Shown here one piece after another: positions 10,846-61,445 of a DNA stretch of 64,000 nucleotides. Origin of the DNA: a virus. The notes below the pieces were generated by a model. The model made no database searches. It had not been told where the DNA came from and worked only from the letters and a program-made list of their open reading frames with translations. The stretch lies in IMG/VR virus record IMGVR_UViG_3300046507_000747, positions 1-64,000 of that record, one strand, 5' to 3'. A program made the position numbers and the translations under genes. Each line of letters starts with the position of its first letter. The first letter of the stretch is position 1.

Positions 10846-11156
10846 CGGAGAAGCGCAGGCTGCAGGTGAACCCCGATCCGCTCAAGATCGTCGAGGCCCG
10901 CCCCGGAGATGCTCCTGCCTCGGCGACCATGATGCTGGCCATCAAGCGTGGCGAGGCTTACCGCAACAGCACCCTCATGCGTCGAGTCAGCGTCCACCGC
11001 GAGGGCTGCCCGCGCATCCCTGCCCGCGAGTTCACCGGCTGGAGCGTCACACCTGCCTCCCGAGAGATCATTCAGAGAGTCCTCAACGAAGCCGACCGAT
11101 GCGGCGTGCCCACCGCCGTCTCCTGCCGCACTTGCGGCGGCTGGAGCGTGCTGTGA
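10842..11156 (+). CDS. Hypothetical protein, 104 aa
   Basis: The ATG at 10842 lies in an ATGA overlap with the previous gene, and its stop overlaps the recombinase start by GTGA. It is a small basic protein ending in VSCRTCGGWSVL, with a single CxxC and a conserved-looking tail. Position directly before the recombinase suggests an accessory such as a directionality factor, but it has no recognisable Xis/MerR helix-turn-helix, so this is only an idea. Confidence 0.6.
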   Translation: MTEKRRLQVNPDPLKIVEARPGDAPASATMMLAIKRGEAYRNSTLMRRVSVHREGCPRIPAREFTGWSVTPASREIIQRVLNEADRCGVPTAVSCRTCGGWSVL

Positions 11157-14165: not shown

Positions 14166-14202
14166 TCTCGCGAGAATTCTCCGAGTTGGCATATGCCAAC
14201 TC
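14166..14202. promoter_or_regulatory. Nested palindromes: TCTCGCGAGA, GAGAATTCTC and a 20-bp perfect palindrome
   Basis: TCTCGCGAGA (14166-14175) overlaps GAGAATTCTC (14172-14181). A 20-bp perfect palindrome with core GGCATATGCC (14183-14202) abuts the stop codon of the minus-strand gene at 14203. No T tract follows in either direction. GAGAATTCTC links it to the Scr1-like promoter and the other two motifs recur at 14710-14750. Confidence 0.55.
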
Positions 14203-40101: not shown

Positions 40102-43100
40102 TCACAGGGGCTGGTAGGTGACGAGGGACAGGCCCCGGTCGTTCTTGCGGAGTTCGGCCAGGCAGAGGGCGCCCTTGGTGAAGCGACGCTGCTCGACGGC
40201 CCAGGCGTCGCGGAACACGGCGACGCGGAGGGTGGACAGTTCGGTCTCCAGGGTCAAAAAGCCCATGTCGCCCGTCCTGTGCGGGCGGGCCCCGGCGACG
40301 ATCGCGGCGACGTAGTAGGTGCCGTTGGGTCCTGCGGCCAGCTGCTCGGCCTGGGCACGGCAGACCGCGCGGTCGTTGGGGTCCAGGTCGTCGAACGGCG
40401 TACTGGAGAGGTAGGTGCCGAGCATCTCGTGCTCGATAGTCCGGATGTCCACGGGGCTGTAGGGCTCGACCGCCTCGATCTGCAGCGGCGGCGGCGCGGT
40501 GTACTGGCGGCACGCCTTGGTGCAGCGCTTGGGCAGCGGCTTGCGCTTGAGGGTCTTGCCGGTGCGCGGGTTGACCGGGGCGGGCTCGCTGGCCCAGTTG
40601 AAACTACAGGGCAGGGCCGTCGACTCGAACAGCTCGATCTTGTGGACGCAGCGGGCGTCCTCTTTGGTCTTGGCAGCCAACAGCTTGGCCTCCAGTCCGC
40701 GCCGGTTGCTGACGAGCGTGTCGAAGGCGCCGATGCGCGCGAGAAGGGCGACGACGCCCGCGTTGGCCTTGGGGCTCTTGCGGGTCTCGAAGTCCTCCCA
40801 GGAGGCGTACGGCTGGGTCTCGACGAGGGCCTTGACGGCGACGTCGCCGACGCCCTTGACGGAGCCGAGGCCGTAGCGGACGGCGTACTGCTCGGGGTCG
40901 GCGGTGAAGCCGGGGCCGGAGGTGTTGATGTCCGGGGGGAGTACCTCGACGTCCAGGCGCCGGGCCTCCTTGACGAACTCGGGGACGCGGTCCTTGTCGA
41001 CGGTGGACATGGCGGAGACGAGGAACTCGCGGGGGTAGTTGACCTTGAGGAACGCGGTCCAGAACGCGAGGAACGCGTAGGCGTAGGCGTGGCTCTTGTT
41101 GAAGCCGTACTTGGAGAACTCGGCCATCTGGGACCACAGGCGCTCGGCCTGCTCGCGGGGTATGTCGACGCGGGAGAGGAACTCCTGCCCGGCGTCAGCG
41201 ATGGCGGAGATCTTCTTCTTGCCCAGGATCCGGCGGACGCCGTCGGCCTCGGACTCGTCGTACCCGGCGAGGAGCTGTGTGACGGCCATGACCTGCTCCT
41301 GGTAGATCATCGCGCCGTAGGTGGGGGCGAGGACCTTCTCCAGGCGGGGGTCGGGGTAGGTGACGGCCTGTTCGCCCGCGCGGCGGCGCAGGTAGAGGTC
41401 GGTCAGGCCGGAGTTCATCGGGCCGGGCCGGACGATCGTCACCATGTCGGCCAGCTCGGCGACGTTGCGGGGGCGCATGCGCTCGCACAGGCGGGTTCCG
41501 GAGTGGGTCTCGATCTGGAAGACACCGACGGTGTGGGCGGCCTGCAGCTCCTCCCAGACCAGGGGGTCCTCGAACTCGACCTCCCACGCCTCCAGGTCGA
41601 TCTCGTACCGGCGCTGCTCGCGGACCAGGTCGAGGGTCTCCTGGATGGTGTCCAGGGTGCGCAGGGTGAGGATGTCGAACTTGACCAGGCCGATCGCCTC
41701 GACGTCACCCATGGCCCACTGGGTGACCATCTGCTCTTCGCCGTCGATGGTGCGCATCGGCAGCCAGTCGGTGAGCGGGGCGCCGGTGGAGATAACCACC
41801 CCGGCCGCGTGGCGGCCGTAGGACTTCAGGCGGCCGACCAGACGCTCGGCCATGGCGAACAGCTCGGGGTAGCGGTCGGCGAACGGCTGCAGCTGCTCGC
41901 CGTGCTGGACCCAGAGGTCCTCCCAGGACATGCCGAGCCCGGCGGTGCCCGCTTCGGCCTCGTCGATCAGGGCGGAGACCTGGCGCAGGTCGGCCGCCGC
42001 GCCCTCGGGGAGGGAGGACGCCAGCGCGCGGACCAGCTCGTTGATGACGGCCTTGTTCTTCAGGCGCAGCTCGGAGCCGATGGAGACGACGTTGCGCTCG
42101 CCCCAGCGCTCGCGGAGGTAGCCGAGGATATGGGCCTTCTTGCTGGCGGGGAAGTCGACGTCGAAGTCGGGCAGGCCCGCACGGCCGCGCGTCAGGAAGC
42201 GCTCGAAGAGGAGGTCATGCTTGACCGGGTCCAGCGAGGTGATGCGGGCGAGGTAGGCGACGAGGGAGCCGCCGCCGGAGCCGCGTCCGGGGCCGACCAG
42301 AATGCCGTGGTCCTTCGCCCAGCCAACATAGTCCGCGACCATCAGGTAATAGCCACAGAACCCTTTGTCGACAAGTAGCTCCATCTCCCTCGCGTACCGG
42401 TCTCGGTAGACCCGCTCGGTGTCGGAGAAGTCCTGGGCGTTGGCGGGCAGTCGGTTCCAGTTGTCCAGGCACAGCTCGCGCAGGCGCCGCTCGTCCTCGG
42501 CCGGGTCACCAGTGAAGGACGGCGTGGTCGTCTCGCCCTCGATCCGGGCGTCGCAGCGCTCGGCCAGCGCCCGGGTGTTTGCGATGGCCTCCTCAACGAC
42601 GTCCTGGCCGAGGTAGGCGAGCCCGGCGCGGACCTCGGCTTCGCCCATGACGTAGAGGTTCAGGTCCTCGGCGAAGAGGTCGCCTTCGTCCTGGACGTCC
42701 TTGTTGGTCTGGCAGGCGATCCAGACGTCGTGGGCGTGGGCGTCGTCGGCGGTCGGGAAGTGGGAGTCGACGGTGGCCAGCAGCGGCAGGTTGAACTCGC
42801 GGGCCAGGGCGACCAGGGCCGTGTTGAGCTTGACCTGGTCGGGCATGTCGTTGGGCTGCAGCTCGACGTACAGGCGGCCGGGGAACAGGTCCATGAGCCG
42901 GGTCAGGCGCTGGAGGGCCAGGTCGGCGTCGCCGTTCTTGATGGCGACGGCCACCGGGCCGCGCAGGCAGCCGGTGGAGGCGATGACGCCCTCGCTGAAC
43001 CGGCCGAGGGTGTCCCAGTCCATGCGGGGCCGGTAGTAGAGGCCGTCGCGGAAGGACTCGGTGCTGGCTGCCCAGATGTTGCGCAGGCCGGTGTTGTCCA

Positions 43101-43779
43101 TGGCGAACAGGCAGACGTGCCAGTAGTCGTTGCGAAGGCTGGCCTGCATCTCCTTGTCACCCGGCTCGGCGCGGATGACGCGGTCGTCGCACAGGTACGC
43201 CTCGATGCCGAAGATCGGCTTGACCCCGGCCTTGTCGGCGGCACGCTGCAGCTCGGGGTGTCCGGCGCAGGTGCCGTGGTCGGTGATGGCGACGGCGCTC
43301 TGGCCGTGGCGGGTGACCTCACGGAGGATTTCGTCCATGCGGGACAGGCCGTCGAGGGGGCTGTACTCGCTGTGGGTGTGCAGGTGCACGAACCCGCCGG
43401 GGCGAGTGCCGGGTGGGCTGTCGAGGGCTTCGAGCTGGTCGAGGACCTCGTGGTAGGTGGGGATGCCGTCCTCGTCGTCGAAGATCGCGGAGCGGCTGTA
43501 GGCGAGGCACAGCCTGTCGCTGCCGAGGTCTTGTTCCTCGACTCGGTGTGCCGGGACGGCAGTGACACCGTCCTCCAGCGCCTCCATGACTCCGGCCGCG
43601 CCGTCGTTCAGTGCGCGGCGCCATGTCAGGTGGGTGACGATGACGGGCGCGGCAGCGGGGACGAGCAGCCAGCGGGTGCCGTCTTCCTCGTGCTCGACGA
43701 GTGCGGGAAGCTGGGCGCGAAGTTCGCCAACCTGCACATAAGGGGCGTCAGGTGCGTAGGAGCTGATGAGGCGCAGCAC
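40102..43779 (-). CDS. dnaE: DNA polymerase III alpha-like subunit (C-family polymerase)
   Basis: A 1225-aa protein; GTG 43779 follows AAGGACCACCACC. An unusual N-terminal extension of about 128 residues precedes a PHP domain (HLHTHSEYSPLDG, AITDHGT). The palm carries PDFDVDFPASKKAH and ATPase-free catalytic region VRPGPMNSGLTDLYLRR. Finger and helix-hairpin regions follow (YGFNKSHAYAYAF). The OB-like end contains HEMLGTYLSSTPFDD. This is a full-length DnaE with a phage-specific front end. No beta clamp or epsilon subunit is visible, so it probably uses host partners. Confidence 0.9.
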   Translation of the reverse strand: MLRLISSYAPDAPYVQVGELRAQLPALVEHEEDGTRWLLVPAAAPVIVTHLTWRRALNDGAAGVMEALEDGVTAVPAHRVEEQDLGSDRLCLAYSRSAIFDDEDGIPTYHEVLDQLEALDSPPGTRPGGFVHLHTHSEYSPLDGLSRMDEILREVTRHGQSAVAITDHGTCAGHPELQRAADKAGVKPIFGIEAYLCDDRVIRAEPGDKEMQASLRNDYWHVCLFAMDNTGLRNIWAASTESFRDGLYYRPRMDWDTLGRFSEGVIASTGCLRGPVAVAIKNGDADLALQRLTRLMDLFPGRLYVELQPNDMPDQVKLNTALVALAREFNLPLLATVDSHFPTADDAHAHDVWIACQTNKDVQDEGDLFAEDLNLYVMGEAEVRAGLAYLGQDVVEEAIANTRALAERCDARIEGETTTPSFTGDPAEDERRLRELCLDNWNRLPANAQDFSDTERVYRDRYAREMELLVDKGFCGYYLMVADYVGWAKDHGILVGPGRGSGGGSLVAYLARITSLDPVKHDLLFERFLTRGRAGLPDFDVDFPASKKAHILGYLRERWGERNVVSIGSELRLKNKAVINELVRALASSLPEGAAADLRQVSALIDEAEAGTAGLGMSWEDLWVQHGEQLQPFADRYPELFAMAERLVGRLKSYGRHAAGVVISTGAPLTDWLPMRTIDGEEQMVTQWAMGDVEAIGLVKFDILTLRTLDTIQETLDLVREQRRYEIDLEAWEVEFEDPLVWEELQAAHTVGVFQIETHSGTRLCERMRPRNVAELADMVTIVRPGPMNSGLTDLYLRRRAGEQAVTYPDPRLEKVLAPTYGAMIYQEQVMAVTQLLAGYDESEADGVRRILGKKKISAIADAGQEFLSRVDIPREQAERLWSQMAEFSKYGFNKSHAYAYAFLAFWTAFLKVNYPREFLVSAMSTVDKDRVPEFVKEARRLDVEVLPPDINTSGPGFTADPEQYAVRYGLGSVKGVGDVAVKALVETQPYASWEDFETRKSPKANAGVVALLARIGAFDTLVSNRRGLEAKLLAAKTKEDARCVHKIELFESTALPCSFNWASEPAPVNPRTGKTLKRKPLPKRCTKACRQYTAPPPLQIEAVEPYSPVDIRTIEHEMLGTYLSSTPFDDLDPNDRAVCRAQAEQLAAGPNGTYYVAAIVAGARPHRTGDMGFLTLETELSTLRVAVFRDAWAVEQRRFTKGALCLAELRKNDRGLSLVTYQPL

Positions 43780-43822
43780 GGTGGTGGTCCTTGCGCGTGG
43801 AGGGTGGTGAAGGTTGACCGGG

Positions 43823-43884
43823 CCGCCCCGGGGAAGAACGCAGCGCTGAAACGCTGAGCGCCGTATCTGACGGCACCGGGGCGG
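43823..43884 (-). promoter_or_regulatory. Structured leader before the polymerase gene
   Basis: CCGCCCCGG (43823-43831) pairs with CCGGGGCGG (43876-43884), enclosing CAGCG-CTGAAA-CGCTG. It occupies most of the 128-bp gap between the probable SSB and dnaE and could terminate or attenuate transcription. Confidence 0.45.
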
Positions 43885-43907
43885 ACCGGTGTCTGTGTGC
43901 GCCTGGA

Positions 43908-44897
43908 TCAGGCGGCGGGAGTCTGCGGTACGCCGAGGTTCGCGATGCGGCTGCGCAGGTCGCCGGAGATGTCCGCCGGACCGCTGTCGGCGGCCGAGAG
44001 GTTCACCATGCCGCCGGTGGCCGCCGTGGCGGCGACGATGGTGCCGTCCTTCTCGACCGTCTTGGTCGGGTCGAAAAAGCGGGCGTAGTACTCGTCGGAG
44101 GCCTTGTCGGCGACGATGCCTTCCAGGCTGACCTCGCGCTCGGCGACGGCCTGGAGGTACTTCTCCCAGATGGGGGTGCCCGGCTTGATGAGGTTCTGGC
44201 CGGTCGCCGGGTCCGTGATCGGGTCGATCGGGACGATCTTGTACTCGGTGTCGGTGCCGGTGCCGCTGCGGGTGACGCTGAAGTCCCGGTCGACGACCGT
44301 CCCGTACAGGCCGTGGAGGGCCTTGAAGTGGGCGAAGAAGCCCTTCATGGGCTGGTTGATCACCAGGATGCGGGGGTACTTCAGCTTGTTGCCGGTGGGC
44401 TTGCCGTCGGAGCCCAGCTCGTCGACCTCGTCGATCTTGTCGCGGATGCCGACGACGACACCCTGCTTGGCCGGGCCTCCGAGGGCCTCGCTGCCGTCGC
44501 CACGCACGATCTCCCGCTCGATGGCGAGGGCCCACACACGGGGGCGAGCGGTGGCGGGCTTGCCGAAGGAGTTCTTCAGCTTGCCGTCGTCGATGTAGCA
44601 GTCCTGGTAGTGGCCGCCGAACGCCTTGTCGTAGCGGCACACCGAGGTCATGTTCTTGGGCCACTTCTCGGCATCCTTGGGGCCCGGCTTGGTGGGCACA
44701 AACGAATGCTGGTTGACCCAGATCCAGTCGTCGTGGTCCGTGAGGAGGCGGACGACTGCGGAGTCGCCGTCGTCCTTGAGGCCGAAGTAGTCGGGGCCGC
44801 GACGGCCGCTGGAGGAGACGCTTGCCTCCTTCTCGGCCTGCTCGGCGGCGGTGCCGCCTCGGCGGAAGTTGATGACGGGGCTCGTGTTGGCGGTCAC
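43908..44897 (-). CDS. Probable single-stranded DNA-binding protein
   Basis: A 329-aa protein; GTG 44897 follows AGGAGCCTTC. PDYFGLKDDGDSAVVRLLTD, WVNQHSFVPTKPG and TSVCRYDKAFGGHYQDCYID are consistent with the beta-rich core and Cys/His site seen in T4 gp32-like and actinophage SSB proteins. VFIN-like turns and an acidic or Ser-rich C-terminus (SGPADISGDLRSRIANLGVP) follow. It sits immediately before dnaE in the same operon. The family assignment is from pattern and context. Confidence 0.55.
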   Translation of the reverse strand: MTANTSPVINFRRGGTAAEQAEKEASVSSSGRRGPDYFGLKDDGDSAVVRLLTDHDDWIWVNQHSFVPTKPGPKDAEKWPKNMTSVCRYDKAFGGHYQDCYIDDGKLKNSFGKPATARPRVWALAIEREIVRGDGSEALGGPAKQGVVVGIRDKIDEVDELGSDGKPTGNKLKYPRILVINQPMKGFFAHFKALHGLYGTVVDRDFSVTRSGTGTDTEYKIVPIDPITDPATGQNLIKPGTPIWEKYLQAVAEREVSLEGIVADKASDEYYARFFDPTKTVEKDGTIVAATAATGGMVNLSAADSGPADISGDLRSRIANLGVPQTPAA

Positions 44898-47269: not shown

Positions 47270-47871
47270 GCGGCGACCTTCGATTCCTTCTGGGAAGCGC
47301 GCTCGGCCGCGCGCTGGACGCGGTGCGCCTCGCGGCAGGTGCACTCCGGGTGCGGGGCGAGCTGGAGTTCGTTCTTCTTGAAGTGCGCGCGGTAGCCGCG
47401 TTCGGTGCCGCAGATGGGCCGCAGGGGGGCCTGGAAGAGGCTGACGCGGCTGCCGGGGATCTCCTCGTACTGCTGCTGCTCCTCGGCCCGCCTGGCGGCT
47501 GCTGCGGCCTTCTCCTTGCGCTTGCGCTCCTCGGCGGCCTCCTTGTACGCCTGCTGGCGGGCGTTGTGGGCCAGGCGGCAGGGCTCGCAGTCCTCGCCCG
47601 CGTCATTGTGACGGCGGTAGGCCATCTCGCTTTCGCAGTCCGGTGGGAGAAGGTCGGCTTCGGTGATGCCGAGGGCAGCCCAGCGCTCTCCCTGGGTCTC
47701 TCCGCCCCAGATGCCCCACTCGCGGCCCTCGCGGCCAGCACGACGGCAGGCCAGCTCCACGGGGCAAGTGCCGCAGATCCGCAGGGCCTTGCGGGCGGCC
47801 TTGGTCTCGCGTGTCTTGCCGGTGTCGAACAGCTCGGGCTGGACGGCGCAGGGGAAGGCGTAGGCGGTCAC
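47266..47871 (-). CDS. WhiB-like protein with extra C-terminal domain
   Basis: A 201-aa protein, GTG 47871 in a GTGA overlap. The N-terminal 70 residues carry the four Cys and turn of Wbl proteins: FPCAVQPELFDTG, RICGTCPVELACRR and EWGIWGGETQGERW. WhiB family proteins hold an iron-sulfur cluster and bind the primary sigma factor; phage members reprogram host genes. The rest is a helical basic region (RKRKEKAAAAARRAEE) and a CTCREAH motif, not part of the family. It sits between helicase and primase. Confidence 0.85.
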   Translation of the reverse strand: MTAYAFPCAVQPELFDTGKTRETKAARKALRICGTCPVELACRRAGREGREWGIWGGETQGERWAALGITEADLLPPDCESEMAYRRHNDAGEDCEPCRLAHNARQQAYKEAAEERKRKEKAAAAARRAEEQQQYEEIPGSRVSLFQAPLRPICGTERGYRAHFKKNELQLAPHPECTCREAHRVQRAAERASQKESKVAA

Positions 47872-49172
47872 AGGGTCACCTCGCCGAGGACGTGCTGGGT
47901 GCCGTACCAGGGCTCCCAGGCGCAGCGCCAGTTGGTCAGGTCCATGCGTCGGGACGCGAGCATTTGAAGGGTGGCCATACCGGCAGCGACCTCGGTTTCT
48001 GAGCGGATGAGGCCGAACACCCAGGAGCTGTAGCGCTCGATCGCCGAGGAGTCGGCGATGTGCTGCATCTCCAGTCGTCCGGCCTTCTGGGCGGCGGCGA
48101 CGCCCTCACGGTTGATCTGGCAGTTCAGGAGCACCGACGGCATGTAGCGGCCGGTGGTGATGAGCGTGGACAGCTCGTTCATCAGCTCGGCGATCGTTTC
48201 GTGCTTGGGCCGCCGGGGGTTGGGGTTGGGGTGCTGGATGTGGGAGAGCTGGTCGATGATGATCGACTTCGCCCCGTAGGACTGGGCCTGGCGGATGAGG
48301 GCGGCGGGGGTGCGCAGGCCGTCGTCCGGGGAGAGGACGTGCAGGCCGTCCTTCAGGTCCTGCTCGTTCTCGGCGAGCCAGGTGCGGACTCGGTCGACGT
48401 CCTCAGCGGCGGCCGTGCCCTTCTGGTACTCGCGGTAGTCGACGCAGCAGATCTGGCAGGCGAGCCGGTCGTACGTCATCTGCACGCTGTTCTCCAGCGT
48501 GTAGAGGACGGTCTCCCGGTCGCGCCGCCACTCGGTGTTGGCGACGTGGGTGGCGCTGAACGACTTGGCACCCTTGGGCGGGGCGCACCAGGCGCAGATC
48601 TCGCCCCCGTGGACGCCGAGGGTGTGATTGTCGACGGCCTCCATCCCGAGGGACATGCCGGTGACGACCTTCGGTGCGGCGGCGCGCTGGTCGTAGCGGG
48701 CGAGGGAGTCGCGCAGTCCCTGGACGCCTTCGACCTCGTTCTGCCGGTTGCGGACCGACATGGAGAGGCCGTGGAAGGCGGCGGCGGCCTGGTGGACGGC
48801 CTCGACGCGTTCGTGCGGCTCGGCGTTGGCCATCGCGACGGCGGCCTCGCGCTGCAGGCGCTGGGACTCGGCCAGGACGTACTGGCTCTGCAGGTACTCG
48901 ATCGCCGCGAAGACCTCGTCGACTTCGAGGTCCTCGTCCGGCAGGACGATGTTGCACTGCTCCAGCCGGTGTCCCCACTGCTCCTGCAGGAGTTCGCGGG
49001 AGGGCGCCTTGGTGCGGCCGGAGCGGTAGAAGTAGGAGACCGTCCACTCGACGACGTCGCGCATGCCGGTCGTCGGGATGCACGCCGGGTCCAGGCCTGT
49101 GTCGGCCAGCTGCTCCAGCGCGTCTACGTCGGTGAGGCTGGCGTAGAGGACGGTCTCTGCGTGCATGGTCAT
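47868..49172 (-). CDS. dnaB: DnaB-like replicative helicase
   Basis: A 434-aa protein, ATG 49172 in an ATGA overlap. The N-terminal helical domain is followed by a RecA-like core: Walker A region EICAWCAPPKGAKSFS, ENSVQMTYDRLACQ (H2-like), Walker B SIIIDQLSHIQ and the sensor-like VLLNCQINREG and SWVFGLIRS. The Walker A reads APPKGAKS, both classical glycines replaced by alanine, so it departs from GxxxxGKS. It would unwind the fork together with the DnaC-like ATPase at 50030. Confidence 0.8.
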   Translation of the reverse strand: MTMHAETVLYASLTDVDALEQLADTGLDPACIPTTGMRDVVEWTVSYFYRSGRTKAPSRELLQEQWGHRLEQCNIVLPDEDLEVDEVFAAIEYLQSQYVLAESQRLQREAAVAMANAEPHERVEAVHQAAAAFHGLSMSVRNRQNEVEGVQGLRDSLARYDQRAAAPKVVTGMSLGMEAVDNHTLGVHGGEICAWCAPPKGAKSFSATHVANTEWRRDRETVLYTLENSVQMTYDRLACQICCVDYREYQKGTAAAEDVDRVRTWLAENEQDLKDGLHVLSPDDGLRTPAALIRQAQSYGAKSIIIDQLSHIQHPNPNPRRPKHETIAELMNELSTLITTGRYMPSVLLNCQINREGVAAAQKAGRLEMQHIADSSAIERYSSWVFGLIRSETEVAAGMATLQMLASRRMDLTNWRCAWEPWYGTQHVLGEVTL

Positions 49173-50029: not shown

Positions 50030-50878
50030 TCATACCGCCGTGATGGGTCGGGCCAGGCCGAGTTCGGCTTCCTGGCGGGAGAGTTCGCGTCGCACCGGCC
50101 GGTAGTCGGTGCCGGGGATCTCGATGAAGTCGGCGGACTCGCTGAGCAGGCTCATCGCGTAGACGCCGTAGCCCTGCTGGATCTCCTGGGGAGATCGGTT
50201 ACTGGTGATGATCGTGGGCGCGGCATCGGAGACGCGGGCGCGGATGATGCGGTCGACCATGTCCTCGACTACGTCGATCCGGCCCTTGTTCTCTTTGCCC
50301 ATGTCGTCCATGGCGAGGACGTCCACGTTGCGCACGCGGCGCGTCCAGTGCTCGCGCTCGTCCTTGTCGCGCCAGGTGGAGGTGAAGAGGTCGATGACGT
50401 CGTTGAACTGCGAGAAGTGGGCCTGAAATCCGTTGGCCATGAGGAACTTGCACAGCAGAGCGAGGAAAAGCGTCTTGCCGGTGCCGGGGTCCTTGGACCA
50501 GAGGATCAGGTTGCGTCCGGTGGCTATGTTGCGGGCCGCCTGGAGGGCGTAGCCCATGACCTGTTCAACGATGTGCTGCGGAACAGTCTTGATGTCGTCC
50601 CAGCCCAGGCGCTGGTAGTTCATTGGGATGCCCGCGTTGAGGAACCACAGGTGCATGAGCCACTGGTCGCGGCAGTCGCACTCGTAGGTGACGACCTCCT
50701 CCGTGCGGCGGTTTGCGGCGTCGTCGGCGTACCAGCGGTAGGTGTTGCTGTCCCGCTTGAGGCAGGTCAGGCAGGTGTCCTTGGGGCTGGTCCATAGGCG
50801 GGGGCGGACGGCCTTGAGCCGGTCGAAGTCCGGGTTGGACAGCGGCTGGCAGGACGGAGGAGGCGGAGGTCGTTTCAA
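50030..50878 (-). CDS. dnaC: DnaC-like AAA+ ATPase (helicase loader)
   Basis: A 282-aa protein. The best start is a TTG at 50878, with AAGGA 8 bases upstream; no ATG or GTG precedes the conserved part. An N-terminal Cys/His region (CLTCLKRDSNTYRWYADDAA, CDCRDQW) could bind zinc. The AAA+ core has Walker A LWSKDPGTGKTLFLALL, Walker B VLAMDDMGKEN and TIITSNRSPQEI (sensor I-like). It is typical of the DnaC/IstB family that loads DnaB. Confidence 0.82.
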   Translation of the reverse strand: MKRPPPPPSCQPLSNPDFDRLKAVRPRLWTSPKDTCLTCLKRDSNTYRWYADDAANRRTEEVVTYECDCRDQWLMHLWFLNAGIPMNYQRLGWDDIKTVPQHIVEQVMGYALQAARNIATGRNLILWSKDPGTGKTLFLALLCKFLMANGFQAHFSQFNDVIDLFTSTWRDKDEREHWTRRVRNVDVLAMDDMGKENKGRIDVVEDMVDRIIRARVSDAAPTIITSNRSPQEIQQGYGVYAMSLLSESADFIEIPGTDYRPVRRELSRQEAELGLARPITAV

Positions 50879-50925
50879 GGTGGCGGTCCTTGATGAAGGC
50901 CCAGTGGCGGCCGGGCGGTGGTAGA

Positions 50926-51177
50926 TCAGAAGGTCTTGCGGAGGACGCTGTCGGCGCAGGGGGTGCCCTCCAGGTCGTACGCCTGAAGGATCTTGAACCG
51001 CTGGATGTGCGTGTTGAGCAGCTCTTGCTCCCAGCGGTGCATGGCGTCGTGCCACTCCTCCACGTTCAGGAGAACGTGGCCTTCGGGGCCGCAGCAGCGT
51101 TCTGAGCCGTCCTCGATCTCCAGGCCGCCGTCGATGGGGCGGACGTAGGAGTTGGGGCAGCAGGCGGGCTCAGGCAT
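50926..51177 (-). CDS. Small Cys-containing protein, 83 aa
   Basis: ATG 51177, 8-base overlap with the upstream gene. MPEPACCPNSYVRPIDGGLE, SERCCGPEGHVLLNVEEW and HRWEQELLNTHIQRFKILQA. CC and CCG near an H could bind metal; the rest is helical. No family was recognised. Confidence 0.6.
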   Translation of the reverse strand: MPEPACCPNSYVRPIDGGLEIEDGSERCCGPEGHVLLNVEEWHDAMHRWEQELLNTHIQRFKILQAYDLEGTPCADSVLRKTF

Positions 51178-54011: not shown

Positions 54012-56156
54012 TCAAGCGGCGGCGGGCAGCTCGCTGGTGAAACCCTGGTAGAAGGCGACGATGTCGGCCAGTGCCGTGGTGACTGGAGCGGGAGGGAGGG
54101 CCTTGACGATCTTTCGGCCGTAGGGCTTGCTGGCCAGACGCGGGTCCATGATCGCGACGACGCCGGAGTCGCCCACGCTGCGGATGAGGCGGCCGTACGC
54201 CTGCAGGAGCGTGAGGGTCATGGACGGCACAACCAGGTCGGCGAAGGCGTTGCCGCCCTGGCGCTCGATGGCCTCGCTGCGGGCCTTGTGGATGGGGTCG
54301 CTGGGGACGGCGAAGGGGAGCTTGTCGACGACGACGAGGCGGCAGGTGTTGCCGGGGAAGTCCATGCCGGTCATGAAGGAGCGCAGGCCGAACAGGACGG
54401 AGTGCTCGTCGGCGCGGAAGCGTTCGGCCATCTCCTTGACGCTCATGTCGCCGCCCTGGACGAAGGTGGCGTAGCCGTCGGCGCGCAGCTGGCCGCCGAT
54501 GACGTTGTAGGCCTCGGTCATGGCCTTGCGGGAGGTGTAGAGGAGCAGAGCCCCTCCCCCGGCGGCCCGGACGAGTTCGAGGGTGGCGGCCGACACCCAG
54601 CTCTCCCACTCCCCCCGCGTGTCTCCTGCGGGGACCGGAACATCGGCGGCCGGGTGGAAGGTGAGGGCCTGGTGGCGGTAGTCGAAGGGGCTGCCGACGT
54701 CGAGGGTGGCGGCGGTGTCCTTCAGGCCGAGGCGGCGGGCGATGTAGTCGAAGCGGTGCGCTCCGGTGCCCGCGCTGAGGGTGGCCGACATCAGGACGGC
54801 CGGGTAGCGGCTCCACAGCTCCTCGCGGAGGTAGGAGCCGACGCCGATGGGCGCGGCCTTGATCATCCAGCGCTTGCCGACGGTCATGCGCTCGTTGCCG
54901 TACATCTCGGCCCAGCGGACCATCTCGTTGGGGTCAGCGAGCATGACGGCCTTGATGTTGGCCAGGAAGTTGCGGCCGACGGTGATGATCCGATTGCGGA
55001 TCGCCTCCTCCTTCTCCTGGTCGGAGGAGTCGGCGATCTTCCGCTTGACGACGCGCTGCCGCAGCACTTCGAGCGCCATCCACAGCGCCACGAACCGGTC
55101 GGCGTGGTCGCCGATGAACTCAGCGTCGATGGCGCCGGTCTGGTCGTGCGCCAGCTGGTCGGCGATCGGCTGGGTCAGCGCGTCAATGGCGGTGATGACG
55201 TCCTGGTGGGCGTCGTAGCTCTTCCCGACGCGCTGCTCGTCCACGTCCTCGTGGACGGCGAGGAAACTCATGGCCTGGTCGGCCCACTTGAGCAGGCCAC
55301 CCTGCTTGATGTCGAAACCGAGGTGGTTGGTGGCCTGGTCCTCCAGCTCGTGGGCCTCGTCGATGATCAGGCCGTCGTAGTCACCGAGGAGGGCGTGGAT
55401 CCGGGGGCCTTCGCCGTCGTCTCCGGCGGTCTCCCGGGCGATCTTGGTGTCGGTGAGCAGGACGGCCAGGTTGGTCGCGACGATGTCGGCGCCCATGGCG
55501 GCGTCCTTGTGCCGCAGGCCGAAGCACTGCTCGGCGAAGCCGCACTTCGAGCGACCGGGGCACTCGTCGCTGGAGGCGGACACCAGCGGCCACTCGCGGC
55601 GCTGATCGACTGGCGTGGTGACGTCGTCGCGGTCGCCGGTGTGGGAGAGCTGGCCGTTCTCGTCCGGCGCGATCTCCTCGCGCAGCGCCTGCAGGTTCTC
55701 GATCGCGGGGGTGTCGGCCATCTTGGCCAGGCAGATGAAGTTCCCGATGCCCTTGAGCGGAGCCCAGGTGAAGTCGATGCCGACCTCGGCCAGGACCTCC
55801 TCCAGCCAGGGGAGATCTTTCTTTGTGTACTGACTCAGGAGGGCGTTGGTCGCGGTGGCGACGACGAACCTCTTGCGGGGCACATCCGGACCCCCGGCGC
55901 GACTGGCGAGGATCGCGGCGACGAGGGCGGCGTAGGACTTGCCGGTGCCGGTGCCCGCCTCGGCGACCAGGTGCATGGGGTCGTGCTCAGTGAGGTCCTG
56001 GGTCAGCGTCAGCTCGGTGGCCTGCGCCAAGTGCTCCTGCTGCGGGCGGCGGCGGTAACCCGGGAGGTGCTTCGCGAACAGCTCTTGCAGGGACAAAAAG
56101 GTCGCAGGCGGAGCGGACGGCATGGAGGGCCCCTTGAAGGTGGTGATGCTGCTCAT
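54012..56156 (-). CDS. dinG: DinG/Rad3-type DNA helicase
   Basis: A 714-aa protein from ATG 56156. Walker A AEAGTGTGKSYAALVAA, DEAH box GLIIDEAHELED, and a four-Cys iron-sulfur cluster region (CLAKM and CPGRSKCGFAEQCFG). C-terminal motifs are VLMSATLSAG, LLYTSRKAMTEAY and YGRLIRSVGDSG (Q/R-x-x-GRxxR-like). This is an XPD-like superfamily 2 helicase acting 5'-3'. The start lacks a strong ribosome site. It heads the long minus-strand replication region. Confidence 0.88.
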   Translation of the reverse strand: MSSITTFKGPSMPSAPPATFLSLQELFAKHLPGYRRRPQQEHLAQATELTLTQDLTEHDPMHLVAEAGTGTGKSYAALVAAILASRAGGPDVPRKRFVVATATNALLSQYTKKDLPWLEEVLAEVGIDFTWAPLKGIGNFICLAKMADTPAIENLQALREEIAPDENGQLSHTGDRDDVTTPVDQRREWPLVSASSDECPGRSKCGFAEQCFGLRHKDAAMGADIVATNLAVLLTDTKIARETAGDDGEGPRIHALLGDYDGLIIDEAHELEDQATNHLGFDIKQGGLLKWADQAMSFLAVHEDVDEQRVGKSYDAHQDVITAIDALTQPIADQLAHDQTGAIDAEFIGDHADRFVALWMALEVLRQRVVKRKIADSSDQEKEEAIRNRIITVGRNFLANIKAVMLADPNEMVRWAEMYGNERMTVGKRWMIKAAPIGVGSYLREELWSRYPAVLMSATLSAGTGAHRFDYIARRLGLKDTAATLDVGSPFDYRHQALTFHPAADVPVPAGDTRGEWESWVSAATLELVRAAGGGALLLYTSRKAMTEAYNVIGGQLRADGYATFVQGGDMSVKEMAERFRADEHSVLFGLRSFMTGMDFPGNTCRLVVVDKLPFAVPSDPIHKARSEAIERQGGNAFADLVVPSMTLTLLQAYGRLIRSVGDSGVVAIMDPRLASKPYGRKIVKALPPAPVTTALADIVAFYQGFTSELPAAA

Positions 56157-56517
56157 GGCGGTGAGCAGGAAGGTCCTGGCGTGAGCGCGACGCTACACAG
56201 CGGCCCCGGGCGGAGTCGCGTTTTTGCTCCGGCGGATTTCCCGACAGGGGGTCAGCGGGGCGCGCCTGCAGGTTTCATGCGCAGGGTCCGTGCATCTGAC
56301 ACCACAGAAGTACTAGGGTGACCACGCGACCATCGTCGGTACCGCCCACCGAGGGTCGCGTCCGCTTCACCTGGCTCCAGAAACACCAACGGCCGCGTCG
56401 TCGGGATCCCCATCCCTCAGCGGCCGTCCGACAGAGACCTTGGCCGGTCATCTTCTGTCGGTGGGGCCAACAACCTGATATCCGAACAAGATCGCTACGA
56501 CCATGGAGGTTGCTGGC
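56157..56517. other. Divergent intergenic region
   Basis: No confident gene. It holds CGGATTTCCC (56233-56242), a TAGCGT -10-like box for dinG at 56190-56195 and an AT stretch GCGTTTTTGCT (56218-56228). It separates the minus-strand replication run from the plus-strand 56.5-58.7 kb genes. Confidence 0.45.
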
Positions 56518-56811
56518 ATGAGCCAGCCTACCCAAGAACAGCCCTCGGTGTACACGACCCGAGGCCATGACACGCCGCTGCAGGCCCGCGCCTGCAATCC
56601 GTTCAGGGGGCGGCTGTCCATTTCTGCCCTCGATGATGTTCAATGTCTTCCGGACGACCGGGCCCGCCAGCCTGGAGCCACCACCACAGACCACCCCCGG
56701 GCACAGGCGTGCCCGAACCCGCCAAGGGGGCTGACGATGCACGGACTTCCTCAGGAAATGCTGGAGGGGCGCCCGGAGACCTCCATCTCCGTGACGCCCC
56801 TCTTCGCTTAG
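56518..56811 (+). CDS. Possible small protein, 97 aa
   Basis: ATG 56518 has GGAGG eight bases upstream. MSQPTQEQPSVYTTRGHDTP followed by LSISALDDVQCLPDDRARQP and HGLPQEMLEGRPETS is polar and disordered-looking. Third-position GC is only moderate, lower than in neighbours, so it may be recently acquired or non-coding. A CGGCC-CGAA-GGCCG hairpin lies just after the stop. Confidence 0.4.
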   Translation: MSQPTQEQPSVYTTRGHDTPLQARACNPFRGRLSISALDDVQCLPDDRARQPGATTTDHPRAQACPNPPRGLTMHGLPQEMLEGRPETSISVTPLFA

Positions 56812-56917
56812 CGGCCCGAAGGCCGGTGGGAGCCTCTCCGCCAAGAGTGCGCTTCCCACAAGGGATTACCAGTCCCTCAGACGACGCGACCTAGTCGGTC
56901 AGACCATCGCCTCCACG

Positions 56918-58366
56918 GTGGTCGGGCCCTTGTCCCCAATGCCAATAGAGAGGGCACCTCCCGCCGTGCCACGCCAGTTTACGGGCCACGCACCCGTGCC
57001 GCACGCCAGCCAGGGCGAAAAACTCGCCAAAATTAGGGGAACCGCCGCCTCCGTCGGCGCGTCTCCACTTGATCTTCACCCTCAGCACTGGCTCCGCCGG
57101 TTCCCCGCACTCTCCCCGCGCATGACGGCCCTGATGGACCAGGGTGACGTCGGACTGCGCTACGGAACGACGGACTCCACCTCGTCCAAGAGGGCCAAGT
57201 CCCAGCACCGGCACGCCGTCATGTCGGCCGCCGCCGCCGGTGCCGTCCGCAGCGGCTGGACCAGCGACCAGTTCGCCGAGGCCATGATCGACTGGCCTTC
57301 GCGTCCCGGCGGCTTCGTGCGCGAGATGAGCCAGCCGTCGGCCGAGCGGTACCTGGACAAGATCTGGGAGCGGGCCCGCCACCACGTCAGCTTCACCAGC
57401 GTCGTCGGCTCCCGCGAGGACGCCGTGATCGAACTGGTCGCGCTGCGGGACACCATCGCCTCCGCCAACTGCTGGCGGGGCACGTCCGGTTCAACCGATC
57501 TCCGCGTTCTGATGGCCCACTGGCACGCCGCGAAGAAGGCCGGTGGCCGGATGTACACCCTGGCCCACCGTGAGGCCGCAGAGGGCGCCGGGTGCACCGC
57601 CAACACCGCGTACCGGGCCTCCAAGCGCCTGGTCTCCGGGGGCTGGCTGAAGCTGGTCGAGGTGGGTACCGCTGACAAGGGATCGACCTGGTACCTGAAG
57701 GACGGTTCTCAGCAACGACACACTCCCCGGGGGGCGCAGCCTGGGGGGGCACAGTCGAATGTATCGATGGTGAGAAACGGTGAGCTGGACGGTGCCGTCA
57801 TCGAGCGCCTGATGAGCCTGGACGCCTTCGCCCACCGGGGCCTTGGAGCCTCTTCCCTGAAGATCCTGGCCGCCCTTCACCTGCGGGATCCCCAGTCCGT
57901 CGCGGAGCTGACCCAGACCGCCATGGCCAGCTCCGCGACCGTCTACCGCAAGCTCAAGGTGCTGACCGAGCACGGTCTGGTCGAGCGCCAGGACGGCCTG
58001 TGGGCGCTCACTGAGACGGCCGCTGAGGCCCTCGCAGGGGCCTGGGAGGGCTGGGACACCGTGGCGGCCGAGGTCGGCACGTACGGGACCGCCTGGCGCC
58101 GTCAGCAGGCCCACAAGGACCAGCGTGCGGTGTGGCACGGCATGGTCGTCCCCCGTATGCGCGAGCGCCGGATGCCCGACGTGGTTCCCGTACGGGGTGA
58201 CGAGGTCGACCGGCGGTGCAGGTGGGGCAGCGAGGTCATCGACCGGGTGACCGGCGAGGTCATCGAGGACTTCGTCGTGGCGTCAGATGGCCGGTACCTG
58301 CTGCTCGTTGAGGACCTGGACTACGACGAGCTGGTCCGCCGCAACGCCCTCGCCTGCGCCGCCTGA
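56918..58366 (+). CDS. Two-winged-helix protein, possible replication or partition protein
   Basis: The frame opens at GTG 56918, but codon use is poor until about 57060 and a GGCGA-AAAAC-TCGCC hairpin lies at 57014-57029; ATG 57122 (MTALMDQGDVGLRYGTTDST) may be the true start. The middle contains YTLAHREAAEGAGCTANTAY with ASKRLVSGGWLKLVEVG, a winged-helix, and ILAALHLRDPQSVAELTQTA with LVERQDGLWALTET, a second MarR-like one. It resembles actinobacterial plasmid Rep/helix-turn-helix proteins in layout only. A 43-bp inverted-repeat arm interrupts the linker between the two domains. Confidence 0.62.
   Translation: MVGPLSPMPIERAPPAVPRQFTGHAPVPHASQGEKLAKIRGTAASVGASPLDLHPQHWLRRFPALSPRMTALMDQGDVGLRYGTTDSTSSKRAKSQHRHAVMSAAAAGAVRSGWTSDQFAEAMIDWPSRPGGFVREMSQPSAERYLDKIWERARHHVSFTSVVGSREDAVIELVALRDTIASANCWRGTSGSTDLRVLMAHWHAAKKAGGRMYTLAHREAAEGAGCTANTAYRASKRLVSGGWLKLVEVGTADKGSTWYLKDGSQQRHTPRGAQPGGAQSNVSMVRNGELDGAVIERLMSLDAFAHRGLGASSLKILAALHLRDPQSVAELTQTAMASSATVYRKLKVLTEHGLVERQDGLWALTETAAEALAGAWEGWDTVAAEVGTYGTAWRRQQAHKDQRAVWHGMVVPRMRERRMPDVVPVRGDEVDRRCRWGSEVIDRVTGEVIEDFVVASDGRYLLLVEDLDYDELVRRNALACAA
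57706..57748. repeat. 43-bp inverted repeat, left arm
   Basis: Starts TTCTCAGCAACGACACACTC and ends CGCAGCCTGGGGGG. It is the exact reverse complement of 58739-58781, with 990 bp between the arms. It lies inside the two-winged-helix gene and encodes its linker. A shared TCGAATGT just beyond each arm extends the similarity. Confidence 0.85.
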
Positions 58367-58423
58367 CTGCCCAGCAAACCTTCATGTAGCCGCATATTCG
58401 CTGATCAGATGGCATGCGTGGTC

Positions 58424-58453
58424 TTGCCAGCCTGTTTCCGGTCTGCTTAGTGT
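58424..58453 (+). promoter_or_regulatory. Promoter for a leaderless message
   Basis: TTGCCA, 18 bases, TAGTGT, then only 6 bases to the ATG at 58460. The predicted transcription start coincides with the start codon and no ribosome site is present. Confidence 0.6.
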
Positions 58454-58459
58454 GCCCCC

Positions 58460-58738
58460 ATGCAGAGACCGATCGCCGCCACTCGGTGCCTGTCCTATGA
58501 CGACGCCACCGCAGTCCTTCCAGACATACGCCAGAACCTCAAGTACCGGGGTCTCACCCGTGATCAGTACGGCCTGTGCGCTGAAGTCGGCCGGTACGGA
58601 CGAGGCTGGGCTGTCTATGTGGGATTCCAGCGCTCCGCTGACGTCCACGAGGCCACCCAAGCCATCACCGCCGACTACCCAGATCCCAAAGACAGGTCTC
58701 TGATCTGGGGTTTCTCAGCTTTGACACATTCGATATGA
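58460..58738 (+). CDS. Small hypothetical protein, 92 aa, likely leaderless
   Basis: ATG 58460 with no ribosome site but a well-placed promoter. The chain MQRPIAATRCLSYDDATAVL, LTRDQYGLCAEVGRYGRGWA, VYVGFQRSADVHEATQAITA is mixed alpha-beta. No family was recognised. The stop at 58736-58738 abuts the right arm of the 43-bp inverted repeat. Confidence 0.6.
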   Translation: MQRPIAATRCLSYDDATAVLPDIRQNLKYRGLTRDQYGLCAEVGRYGRGWAVYVGFQRSADVHEATQAITADYPDPKDRSLIWGFSALTHSI

Positions 58739-58781
58739 CCCCCCAGGCTGCGCCCCCCGGGGAGTGTGTCGTTGCTGAGAA
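58739..58781. repeat. 43-bp inverted repeat, right arm
   Basis: Exact reverse complement of 57706-57748. It begins directly after the stop codon of the 92-aa gene and precedes the terminator at 58834. Confidence 0.85.
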
Positions 58782-58833
58782 ACTGGGTACCTGCCCCCTG
58801 AGCGGCCCTCCACCAGCCCGGAGGTGCCAACAC

Positions 58834-58872
58834 AGCAGGGGCCCTCGGGAGGTCATCCAGAGGGCCCCTGCT
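58834..58872. terminator. Bidirectional hairpin terminator
   Basis: AGCAGGGGCCCTC pairs perfectly with GAGGGCCCCTGCT, between the plus-strand genes and the converging SNF2-type gene. Confidence 0.8.
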
Positions 58873-58873
58873 G

Positions 58874-60427
58874 CTACGCCACCAGGTAGCTCCGGCGCCG
58901 CTGTACGGCCCCCACGTGGCCTTCCGCGCCGGTGTCGCCCAGGAACCGGTCGGCCATCTCGTTGCGAGCCAGCATGGACTCCACGATCCCCTCCTCCACG
59001 GTGCCCTGCAGGACGAACGTGGTGCAGGTGATCGAGGCCGCCTGCGAGGTGATCCGGTCGATCCGGCCGAGGCGCTGGGTGCGGGTCTCGTAGGTCAGCG
59101 CCGACTCGTACTCGACCAGGTAGGTGGCCTCGGGAAGGTTGATGCCGTCCTTGCCCGCGTCGCTGGTCAGGAAGACGCAGGGCTCGGGGTCGGCACGGAA
59201 GCCGGTGCGGGCCTGCTCGCGGTCGGCACCGGCCATGGAGCCGGTGTAGAGGTAGCTGCGGATGCCCTCCTTGCGCAGGGCCTCGGCGAGCAGCGGCAGG
59301 GCGGACGGCCCGAACTGGGAGAAGACCACGGCCTTGTCGCCCTGCCCGTGGACAATGGATGACAGGTACTCGACAAGCTCCTCGGTCTTCCTCGACGGCA
59401 GCGACCGCAGGTACTCCACCCCATACGCCCGGACCAGCTCCATGGCCAGCTGAGACGTTCCGGCGGCGGCCGAGTGGGCGAGGGCCATCGGGTGCGCGGC
59501 GATCTGTCTCAGGGCCGCGTGCAGGCCGGGGACGGGCTGCTGGGGGTCGACCTGCAGGGACGCCACCTCGTCGTAGAGCCGCCCCTGCTCCCGGCCCATC
59601 TGCAGCGTGCGGAACTCCTCGATCCGCCGGGGGAACAGGTCGCGGACGTCCGGGTCCGTCTTGCGCTTGCGCCAGATGTGCGGCCGGGCCAGGGCGACGA
59701 ACTGCTCGACGCCGTCGTCGGAGTAGCGCGGGCGGCCGTAGTCGTCCCGGCTCTTGATCACCGCGTCCTCGAACACCTTCACCGTCGGCATGGCGGCTGG
59801 GACGAGGAGCCGGAGCAGGTTGAAGCCGTCCTCGTAGGACCGGCTGATCGGAGTGGCCGTCAGGCCGACGACGCGCAGGTCCTTCTGGCACCGGCGCAGC
59901 TGGGTGAGGGCGTAGCCGTGGGCCTTGTAGAGCTGGCTGGAGCGGTTGCGCAGCTTGTCGGACATCTCGTCGTAGACCACGAGGACGCGGCGGCCGTCGG
60001 CCTGGGCGGCCAGCAGGGCCTGCAGGACGGGCCCCGGCTCGGGGACCCGGGTCCGCTTCCCCTGGGGAATGGAGAAGCGCGCCAGGTCGGCGCGGAGCGT
60101 CTCGTAGGTGCTGATCACGACGCGGGGCAGGCCGCGCTGCAGCGCCTTCATCCGGCCGGGGCCGTGGTGGACGGCGGCCGTCAGCGTGGTGAAGGCGCCG
60201 AAATCCTCGTGCCACTCGGTGAGCTTGTTCTGCTTGCACACGAGCAGGACGAGGTCCTCGGCGCCGTCCTGCTTGAGGAGCGCGGCGAGCGCCATGGCGA
60301 TGACGGACTTGCCGATGCCGGTGTCGGCCACGAGCAGGCCGGAGCGCCGGGCGTAGGCGAACGCGGTGCCTTCTTGCTGGCACGGGTAGAGGCCGTGCGG
60401 GCTGTGGAAGACGGGCGGGGCGTCCAT
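58874..60427 (-). CDS. SNF2-type superfamily 2 DNA helicase
   Basis: A 517-aa protein from ATG 60427, with a TACCGT -10-like box 7 bases upstream and no ribosome site (possibly leaderless). Walker A VADTGIGKSVIAMALAALL, DEMS-type box VLVVYDEMSDKL (replacing DEAH), GLTATPIS (motif III) and a C-terminal half with KAVVFSQFGPSALPLLAEAL, FLTSDAGKDGINL and TRTQRLGRIDRI (QRxxRxxR-like motif VI). It may remodel or unwind DNA-protein complexes at the fork or in recombination. Confidence 0.82.
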   Translation of the reverse strand: MDAPPVFHSPHGLYPCQQEGTAFAYARRSGLLVADTGIGKSVIAMALAALLKQDGAEDLVLLVCKQNKLTEWHEDFGAFTTLTAAVHHGPGRMKALQRGLPRVVISTYETLRADLARFSIPQGKRTRVPEPGPVLQALLAAQADGRRVLVVYDEMSDKLRNRSSQLYKAHGYALTQLRRCQKDLRVVGLTATPISRSYEDGFNLLRLLVPAAMPTVKVFEDAVIKSRDDYGRPRYSDDGVEQFVALARPHIWRKRKTDPDVRDLFPRRIEEFRTLQMGREQGRLYDEVASLQVDPQQPVPGLHAALRQIAAHPMALAHSAAAGTSQLAMELVRAYGVEYLRSLPSRKTEELVEYLSSIVHGQGDKAVVFSQFGPSALPLLAEALRKEGIRSYLYTGSMAGADREQARTGFRADPEPCVFLTSDAGKDGINLPEATYLVEYESALTYETRTQRLGRIDRITSQAASITCTTFVLQGTVEEGIVESMLARNEMADRFLGDTGAEGHVGAVQRRRSYLVA

Positions 60428-60527
60428 GCAGGTCACGGTAGGTGCCAGGGGGCTAGAGATGGATTTGGAGATTTATTTATCTGGTGATGCGTCGAGAAAA
60501 ACGCAAATCCATTTTTCCGTTGACGAG

Positions 60528-61445
60528 TTACTTGATCCGGTCGAGTCGGAGCCAGCTGCCCGATCCGAGAGTGGCGGTCTGAGCGGCGGTGCCGCTGGCG
60601 AAGGTGACCACGAGGTTCCCGGCGGTGGCGGCGGTGATCAGCGTTCCGTGCAGGGAGACCGCCTTGTTCGCGCCGGAGCCGGACCAGCTGTCGGTGGCGG
60701 TGATGGAGGCGACGTAGGTGGCCGTGTTGTCGCCCCAGACCATGGTGGCGCCGGACGGGCCGGTGAAGGAGTGGACGAAGCTCACGCCGGACGGAGACTG
60801 GACGACCAGGAACGCGGTCATCTGGTACGTGGCCCCGGCTTCCACGGGGATCGTGAGCGAGGCCGACGCCTGCTGCGTGACGGTGCTGTTCGTCTCGGCC
60901 GCCGCAGAGAGAGCGCGCGCGGGCACCAGGCCGCGCACGTTGCCGGAGATGTCCCGCATCCGGATCGGCACGCCCGCTGCCGATTGGCTGTAGATCACCG
61001 ATCCGCCGGAGGGATTGGTGGTGGGGACGGTCGTGGCGTCGGCCAGCTGGATCTCGCCGACGCCGTTGTCCCCGAGCGTCGAGGCGGTGCCGACACGGAC
61101 CGACTGGGAGAAGGCGGGCGTGCCCGAGAACGTCGGGTTCCCGGAGAAGGTGCCCGACATGGTGCCGCCGCTCGCAGGCAGGGCCCCCGTGATGCGGGAG
61201 TCGTTGCCCGCTGCGTAGGTACCGGCGGCGGTACCGGCGACCGGTATCTGGCCGAACGCGGCAGCGTCGTTCGCCGCAGTCCCGTTGGCCAGGTTGGTGA
61301 TCTTCTGGCCGTTCAGGGCGACGGGAGCGGTAGGGGCGACCAGCTGGTCCAGCCGCTTGCTGGTGATCTGAGTCTGCAGATCGGTGAGCGCTGCGTTGAG
61401 CGGCACGTCCCAGTTGAGGGTGCCGGTGGCGACGGTGTTAACCAT
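60528..61445 (-). CDS. Tail fibre-like or minor tail protein
   Basis: A 305-aa protein from ATG 61445, one-base overlap with the upstream stop. The low-complexity N-terminus NGQKITNLANGTAANDAAAF is typical of phage tail fibres. The middle is Gly/Ser/Thr-rich, and the C-terminal part (GATYQMTAFLVVQSPSGVSF, GSWLRLDRIK) is a beta sandwich suited to a trimeric receptor-binding tip. Last structural gene before a non-coding gap of about 100 bases. Confidence 0.75.
   Translation of the reverse strand: MVNTVATGTLNWDVPLNAALTDLQTQITSKRLDQLVAPTAPVALNGQKITNLANGTAANDAAAFGQIPVAGTAAGTYAAGNDSRITGALPASGGTMSGTFSGNPTFSGTPAFSQSVRVGTASTLGDNGVGEIQLADATTVPTTNPSGGSVIYSQSAAGVPIRMRDISGNVRGLVPARALSAAAETNSTVTQQASASLTIPVEAGATYQMTAFLVVQSPSGVSFVHSFTGPSGATMVWGDNTATYVASITATDSWSGSGANKAVSLHGTLITAATAGNLVVTFASGTAAQTATLGSGSWLRLDRIK

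Follow-up and report, generated by a model that had tools for sequence, protein, structure and literature searches.

A two-winged-helix protein (up to 482 aa from a GTG start) is encoded at positions 56918-58366 (plus strand) of the viral DNA analysed here (the window; 64,000 nucleotides, part of an 89,753-base virus record), and one arm of a long perfect inverted repeat lies inside its gene, with the other arm about 1 kb away, which raises the question of what such a sequence does within a reading frame. The earlier note had left the choice between an invertible switch, a recombination or replication site and the trace of an old insertion. The comparison of relatives presented here favours the replication site: the repeat belongs to a dyad on which the locally encoded protein probably acts in cis, and this site is most likely a replication origin within the gene of its own putative initiator.

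The repeat itself is real, 57706-57748 being the exact reverse complement of 58739-58781 (43 bp), and with one mismatch allowed the arms lengthen to 57706-57751 and 58736-58781. Exact inverted repeats of at least 20 nt in the whole window comprise this pair and one 20-nt palindrome (14183-14202) and none besides, exact direct repeats of at least 20 nt are absent, and the 41-mer common to both arms occurs twice in the window and in none of 100 dinucleotide shuffles. The arms are nevertheless only part of the relevant unit, since each belongs to a dyad of approximately 70 bp in which two inverted half-sites, TGTGTCNNNGCTGAGAA and its inverse in both window dyads, flank an asymmetric G-rich core of approximately 37 bp containing GGC-GCA-GCC and, directly after it, six or seven consecutive G. 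In the left, intragenic dyad (57705-57776, plus strand), the half-sites lie at 57706-57722 (minus strand) and 57760-57776 (plus strand, two mismatches), and the GGC-GCA-GCC mini-hairpin (57733-57741, plus strand) is followed by a G7 tract (57743-57749). The right dyad (58711-58782, minus strand) is a second copy in the opposite orientation 1 kb downstream, situated between a 92-aa ORF (58460-58738, plus strand) and a convergent SNF2-type helicase gene, with half-sites at 58712-58728 (minus strand, overlapping the 3' end of the ORF) and 58765-58781 (plus strand) and its mini-hairpin at 58746-58754 (minus strand); the two copies match at 90% over 73 nt. The right arm does begin immediately after the stop of the 92-aa ORF (arm from 58739, stop at 58738), as had been noted, but the dyad to which it belongs starts earlier, because its first half-site precedes that stop. 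At up to three mismatches the half-site is found four times in the window, all within the two dyads, against a chance expectation of 4.63, so that the count alone proves nothing and it is the placement that matters.

ORFs similar to the 92-aa ORF are present in five relatives (L006, L007, L078, L020 and L080), and the ORF has no match in Pfam or PHROG. A strong hairpin (58833-58873; 18-nt arms, 94%), probably a terminator, separates the right dyad from the convergent helicase gene. Another inverted repeat (57894-57944; 20-nt arms, 85%) falls within the part of the winged-helix gene that encodes the second winged helix; a blind dyad scan ranks it above the linker dyad.

The stretch that joins the two winged helices is coded by the left dyad (by the left arm, in the earlier note), and this linker is disordered in the structural model (residues 266-283, pLDDT < 50). 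Differences at four-fold sites are fewer in the dyad than in the rest of the gene in six phage-plasmids (0.186 versus 0.419), twelve chromosomal genes (0.192 versus 0.433) and five plasmids (0.082 versus 0.542), and among gene segments ranked for slowed four-fold sites the one holding the dyad is placed 4 of 524, 20 of 510 and 1 of 448 in phage-plasmids, chromosomal genes and plasmids, respectively. The chromosomal clade reads the second half-site in another frame, and the half-site spacing differs by 2 nt (50 versus 48 nt). By these patterns, the dyad is conserved as DNA and not as protein, and a conserved protein linker can be a by-product of a DNA site.

The same is indicated by pairing within the dyads. 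In 24 aligned dyads, whose copies are related and not independent, 93.3% of cells pair, compared with 81.7% after shuffling and 17.9-39.7% after sliding, and the covariation score is 0.275 versus 0.098. The mini-hairpin stem is kept in 24/24 through a G-C to C-G change between clades, which is probably a single inherited change, and the loop is GNA in 23/24. Single-strand folding of the dyad is not exceptional in general, with z values of -2.15 and -4.28 for the window copies, -3.61 for L007, -1.63 for L009, -0.74 for L081 and -0.63 for L031. Complementarity is lacking in the bases that separate the two parts of each half-site, a pattern more in keeping with protein binding than with a single long hairpin; an RNA element was set aside, and Rfam gave no match over 56150-60600. 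The blind dyad scan, in which the linker came first in only 20 of 73 genes against about 6 expected from its share of the length, and second in the window, is weak on its own and counts among the points against an origin.

Homologues of the gene were gathered from viral contigs (five loci, then nine of which four were new), from one genome per species (59 loci) and from plasmids, where tblastn with the two-winged-helix protein matched 23 records and 10 more records were examined. After removal of duplicates (L003, L004, L008 and L079), 76 distinct loci remained, 43 of which entered the tree, with split reading frames left out of the alignments. Four groups were recovered: the window falls in a phage-plasmid clade (support 100/99), next to which stands a clade made up mostly of chromosomal loci, and the others are a plasmid clade and a more distant pSCL3-type clade. 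Outside the last of these, the dyad is present in the linker of 62/65 distinct loci (49 by a strict motif and 13 with small departures judged by eye), which belong to phage-plasmids, large plasmids and Streptomyces chromosomes; the exceptions are L020 and L080, without an intragenic dyad, and L071, without the left half. The half-sites are GTCTCANNNCTGGNCCAC-like in plasmids, TTCTCAGCAACGACACA-like in phage-plasmids and of the form GTCTCG/GTCTCA...GGNCCAC in the chromosomal clade. A different dyad occupies the same linker position in the pSCL3-type clade, clearly in 6 of 11 loci and weakly in three, and was not seen in two. Additional motif hits in the chromosomal clade (L022, L025, L035, L045 and L074) were rejected as dyad copies, as they represent conserved DNA with a start-like GTG approximately 1.4 kb downstream, and a 14-base scan of the viral contigs was discarded because the matches listed were chance ones.

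The site was found only in this gene and its immediate surroundings. Four whole plasmid records (0.32-0.54 Mb) each contain exactly two zero-mismatch half-sites, the inverted pair in the winged-helix gene; the L016 plasmid record has the dyad, with no match to the consensus half-site. In chromosome-clade genomes the core pattern occurs once per known gene copy (8/8), and the exact phage-type dyad was found in six viral contigs, 6/6 of which carry the gene. When seven viral records were scanned whole, four half-sites were found in the five records with phage-type dyads, alongside a few stray two-mismatch hits; L080 gave two half-site hits, both outside its dyad, and L081 gave none because its half-sites differ. 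The inverted second copy approximately 1 kb downstream was observed, within the flanks examined, in the phage-plasmid clade only. In L020 and L080, the intragenic dyad is gone and the rest of the protein is intact, while the downstream dyad is kept with the same 53-nt half-site spacing. The linker peptide is therefore dispensable, either dyad position seems to be enough, and the intragenic and downstream dyads seem, as far as the comparison of these loci goes, to be redundant in this lineage.

That the dyad never leaves the gene of this two-winged-helix protein suggests that the protein binds it, and the setting of the gene points to replication. The window contains a replication gene cluster with a DnaB-like replicative helicase (47871-49172, minus strand), a DnaC-like helicase loader (50030-51055, minus strand) and a primase, and its proteins also include an exonuclease and a UvsX-like recombinase. 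The nearest named relative, pRLB1-9.1 (L083), is a circular Streptomyces plasmid of 154 kb that encodes an HK97 capsid, a baseplate, ParA, a DnaB-like helicase and DNA polymerase III alpha, and is thus a phage-plasmid; the RefSeq start of its homologue lies approximately 65 codons later than the start used here. Where its replication cluster has a 1256-aa DNA polymerase III alpha, the window has an open frame of 1520 aa (40105-44664), possibly owing to an insertion or an intein. The same plasmid (20814-21032) carries an annotated ATP-grasp RiPP gene (tgmA) with an ATP-grasp partner.

Among the 24 window proteins scanned, the two-winged-helix protein is the only one with PHROG matches to replication initiation proteins, and these are weak (phrog_8102 at 1e-4 for the window protein). 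Across 34 family members, the O-like phrog_678 and phrog_391 were matched by six and four, respectively (E about 1e-4), and phrog_8102 and phrog_270 by seven and six. Matches to transcription regulators are equal or stronger (phrog_2440 in 15/34 members; MarR and IclR in Pfam), and homologues are annotated as HTH or MarR-type regulators. The PDB fold matches are many and are generic winged helices; in a comparison with iteron-type plasmid Rep proteins (RepE/RepA, two winged helices), two chains of solved initiators appear among them, 4pql_B with Z 7.8 and rmsd 3.2 over 85 residues and 4pt7_B with Z 7.5 and rmsd 3.2 over 86; the absence of a fold family from the VIA-align lists does not exclude it. 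Foldseek returned no match at E<=0.001 for the protein model, the phage collection gave no matching record for the protein, and no characterised homologue was found. A search of the open-access literature returned nothing on this gene family or on a dyad within such a gene.

One site per replicon (where the exact motif fits), the replication cluster, the weak O-like matches and a ParA with a partner of its own together favour a replication origin. The protein would form a dimer or a larger oligomer on the inverted half-sites, and the dyad would serve as the replication origin of the phage-plasmid or as its initiator-binding part, the left site lying in the gene's own linker and the right site being the second inverted copy. 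Least certain is the further step, in which the G-rich core, with its mini-hairpin and G-run, might be opened or structured so as to load the DnaC-like loader and DnaB-like helicase.

Several features are not those of a classical origin. No iteron-like direct repeats were found in 55-62 kb, and no AT-rich unwinding element was found at the left dyad, which sits in GC-rich DNA. The highest AT content over 60 bp within 56.5-59.5 kb is 0.53, beside the right dyad; the maximum for the window, 0.63 over 60 bp, is near 60.47 kb (60456-60530), in the gap that separates the helicase gene from the gene after it. DnaA-box-like sites show no enrichment (9 versus 6.25 expected), and the curve of cumulative GC skew along pRLB1-9.1 does not turn at the winged-helix gene. 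It also speaks against an origin that chromosomal homologues retain the dyad, although a chromosome needs no plasmid origin.

Among the closest known arrangements is that of phage λ, whose origin, as outlined in PMC6022878, sits within gene O at the point where a flexible linker connects two protein domains. As in λ, the cis site lies within the gene of a DNA-binding protein at the interdomain linker (in the 62/65 loci here, where the initiator role is putative), the phage has a helicase loader and a helicase, and the protein tolerates in-frame changes of the segment. The same source gives oriλ four 18-bp iterons with hyphenated symmetry and a 39-bp AT-rich region, whereas the window has a single large dyad whose core is GC-rich and which recurs in inverted form 1 kb away, and its left site lacks an AT-rich element. 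As the iterons and AT-rich region are missing, the site is not filed as a member of the oriλ type, and homology of the protein to λ O is only weakly indicated.

Streptomyces replicons offer further comparisons. PMC13152386 calls rep1 of the Streptomyces linear plasmids with rep1/rep2 origins the iteron of their replicon. The linear plasmid pSLA2, of this type, has its origin inside rep1. Like the present system, this type belongs to actinobacterial replicons, and its origin sequences are described as linked to the rep gene; it has iterons and the helicase Rep2, whereas the window site is without direct-repeat iterons. RepA of the theta plasmid pWTY27 is described as binding a discontinuous inverted repeat of approximately 105 bp (IR2) with an unprotected loop, for which the authors propose a folded stem-loop (PMC3583192); in that account IR2 lies beside the rep gene and overlaps direct repeats, whereas the left dyad of the window lies inside the gene. 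A mycobacterial extrachromosomal prophage kept as a plasmid is reported to have RepA, an HTH replication protein, for which the available text describes no intragenic dyad (PMC7157519). The window protein differs from it also in having no match in the phage collection. An HTH replication protein is likewise found in pZL12, a Streptomyces phage-plasmid that is kept as a plasmid.

It is conceivable, though we hold it only tentatively, that the site represents a new class of origin, in which a single G-rich dyad, marked by a mini-hairpin of GNA type and by a G6-7 run, lies in the disordered linker of its own initiator and is common to phage-plasmids, large Streptomyces plasmids and Streptomyces chromosomes, its core being able over evolution to turn, to duplicate in inverted form beside the gene and to leave the gene with the neighbouring copy taking over. 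If the dyad is an origin, it would supply a sequence signature for where replication starts in many large Streptomyces plasmids and phage-plasmids, in a family in which, according to PMC13152386, Streptomycetaceae replicons are still to be characterised. The series of intragenic only, both, and downstream only would then make the question of an origin within an initiator gene testable.

The best rival is a parS-like centromere, in which the winged-helix protein would be a centromere-binding protein working with ParA and the dyad its partition site, a reading that we regard as unlikely. ParA genes are present near the homologue on plasmids and in the chromosomal clade, a single site or few sites per replicon would fit, the structures similar to the second winged helix include the pNOB8 centromere-binding protein (Z 9.2, rmsd 2.9, 70 residues), and the first winged helix resembles TubR (Foldseek E 0.052), but these fold matches are generic. 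Furthermore, an overlapping gene for a separate partner accompanies ParA on L010, L013 and pRLB1-9.1, and also in an ORF reading of L024, which leaves the winged-helix protein free to be the Rep; these partners have no Pfam match and are therefore ParB-like by position only. On pRLB1-9.1, moreover, ParA is encoded approximately 17 kb from the winged-helix gene.

An autoregulatory or roadblock operator, at which a regulator binds inside its own gene and downstream of it, would agree with the annotation of homologues and with the regulator matches in Pfam and PHROG described above, but is improbable. The dyads lie in mid-gene and between converging genes rather than at promoters, and no sigma-70-like promoter was found near them, which is a weak test for actinobacteria. 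One site per replicon also argues against a regulon, which would need sites elsewhere, and on the four whole plasmids no exact half-site occurs outside the gene.

A switch, in which recombination between the arms flips the segment of approximately 1 kb and truncates the protein, is very improbable. Inversion of 57706-58781 in silico does end the frame in ...SYRMCQS, as the earlier note had predicted, yielding a truncated product of 284 aa, and 43 nt of inverted identity suffices for homologous recombination. However, all six distinct genomes with both copies (the window, L005, L006, L007, L019 and L078) have the same orientation and an intact frame, so that a switch is not supported; L003 and L004, contigs identical to the window over 2.1-2.2 kb at the repeat region, share the arrangement and are outside this count. 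The inverted-junction pattern of window-like phages, searched with exact flanks that test near relatives only, had no match in the viral contigs. The genes adjoining the dyads are helicases, the winged-helix gene and the 92-aa ORF, with no recombinase among them, and the one integrase recognised among the 24 proteins scanned (11099-12154) is more than 45 kb from the repeat. The lone intragenic dyad of plasmids and chromosomes, in addition, has no partner for recombination.

The two copies do evolve in concert, the core difference being 0.128 within genomes and 0.244 between them (3/720 pairings are as low as 0.128, among genomes that are related), which reflects gene conversion or rare recombination; gene conversion accounts for it without a switch. 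The core of L081 matches plasmid cores only if reversed (score 21.0 versus 5.4, the highest among 300 shuffles being 8.7), and the five cores examined from the chromosome clade behave in the same way (10.1-11.5 reversed versus 3.1-4.3). The interior of the dyad has therefore turned at least once, with the gene staying open. Concerted copies and inverted cores keep a recombination site alive as an option, with the replication site favoured.

A mobile repeat (IS, MITE or attC-like), or what is left of an old insertion, would be in keeping with the two copies, the core in either orientation and the clean loss of the linker copy in relatives, but has hardly any probability, as no transposase was found near the dyads in the window, the sequence is not dispersed (two copies per phage-plasmid and one per gene elsewhere, the exact phage-type dyad only in the six contigs with the gene and the exact plasmid-type half-sites confined to it on the four whole plasmids), and any insertion would be old, its position in the gene being the same in phages, plasmids and chromosomes and its sites constrained in three clades.

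Finally, two observations concern the chromosomal clade. Chromosomal copies, as at L031 (4878-7882), lie in a module made up of the winged-helix gene, an HTH_58 gene and a ParA-like gene, which resembles a plasmid maintenance cassette in a chromosome. Six loci with split frames (L065, L066, L067, L068, L070 and L073) have a C-run of six or eight in the linker core, usually seven, possibly a slippage or phase-variation spot, decay or sequencing error.
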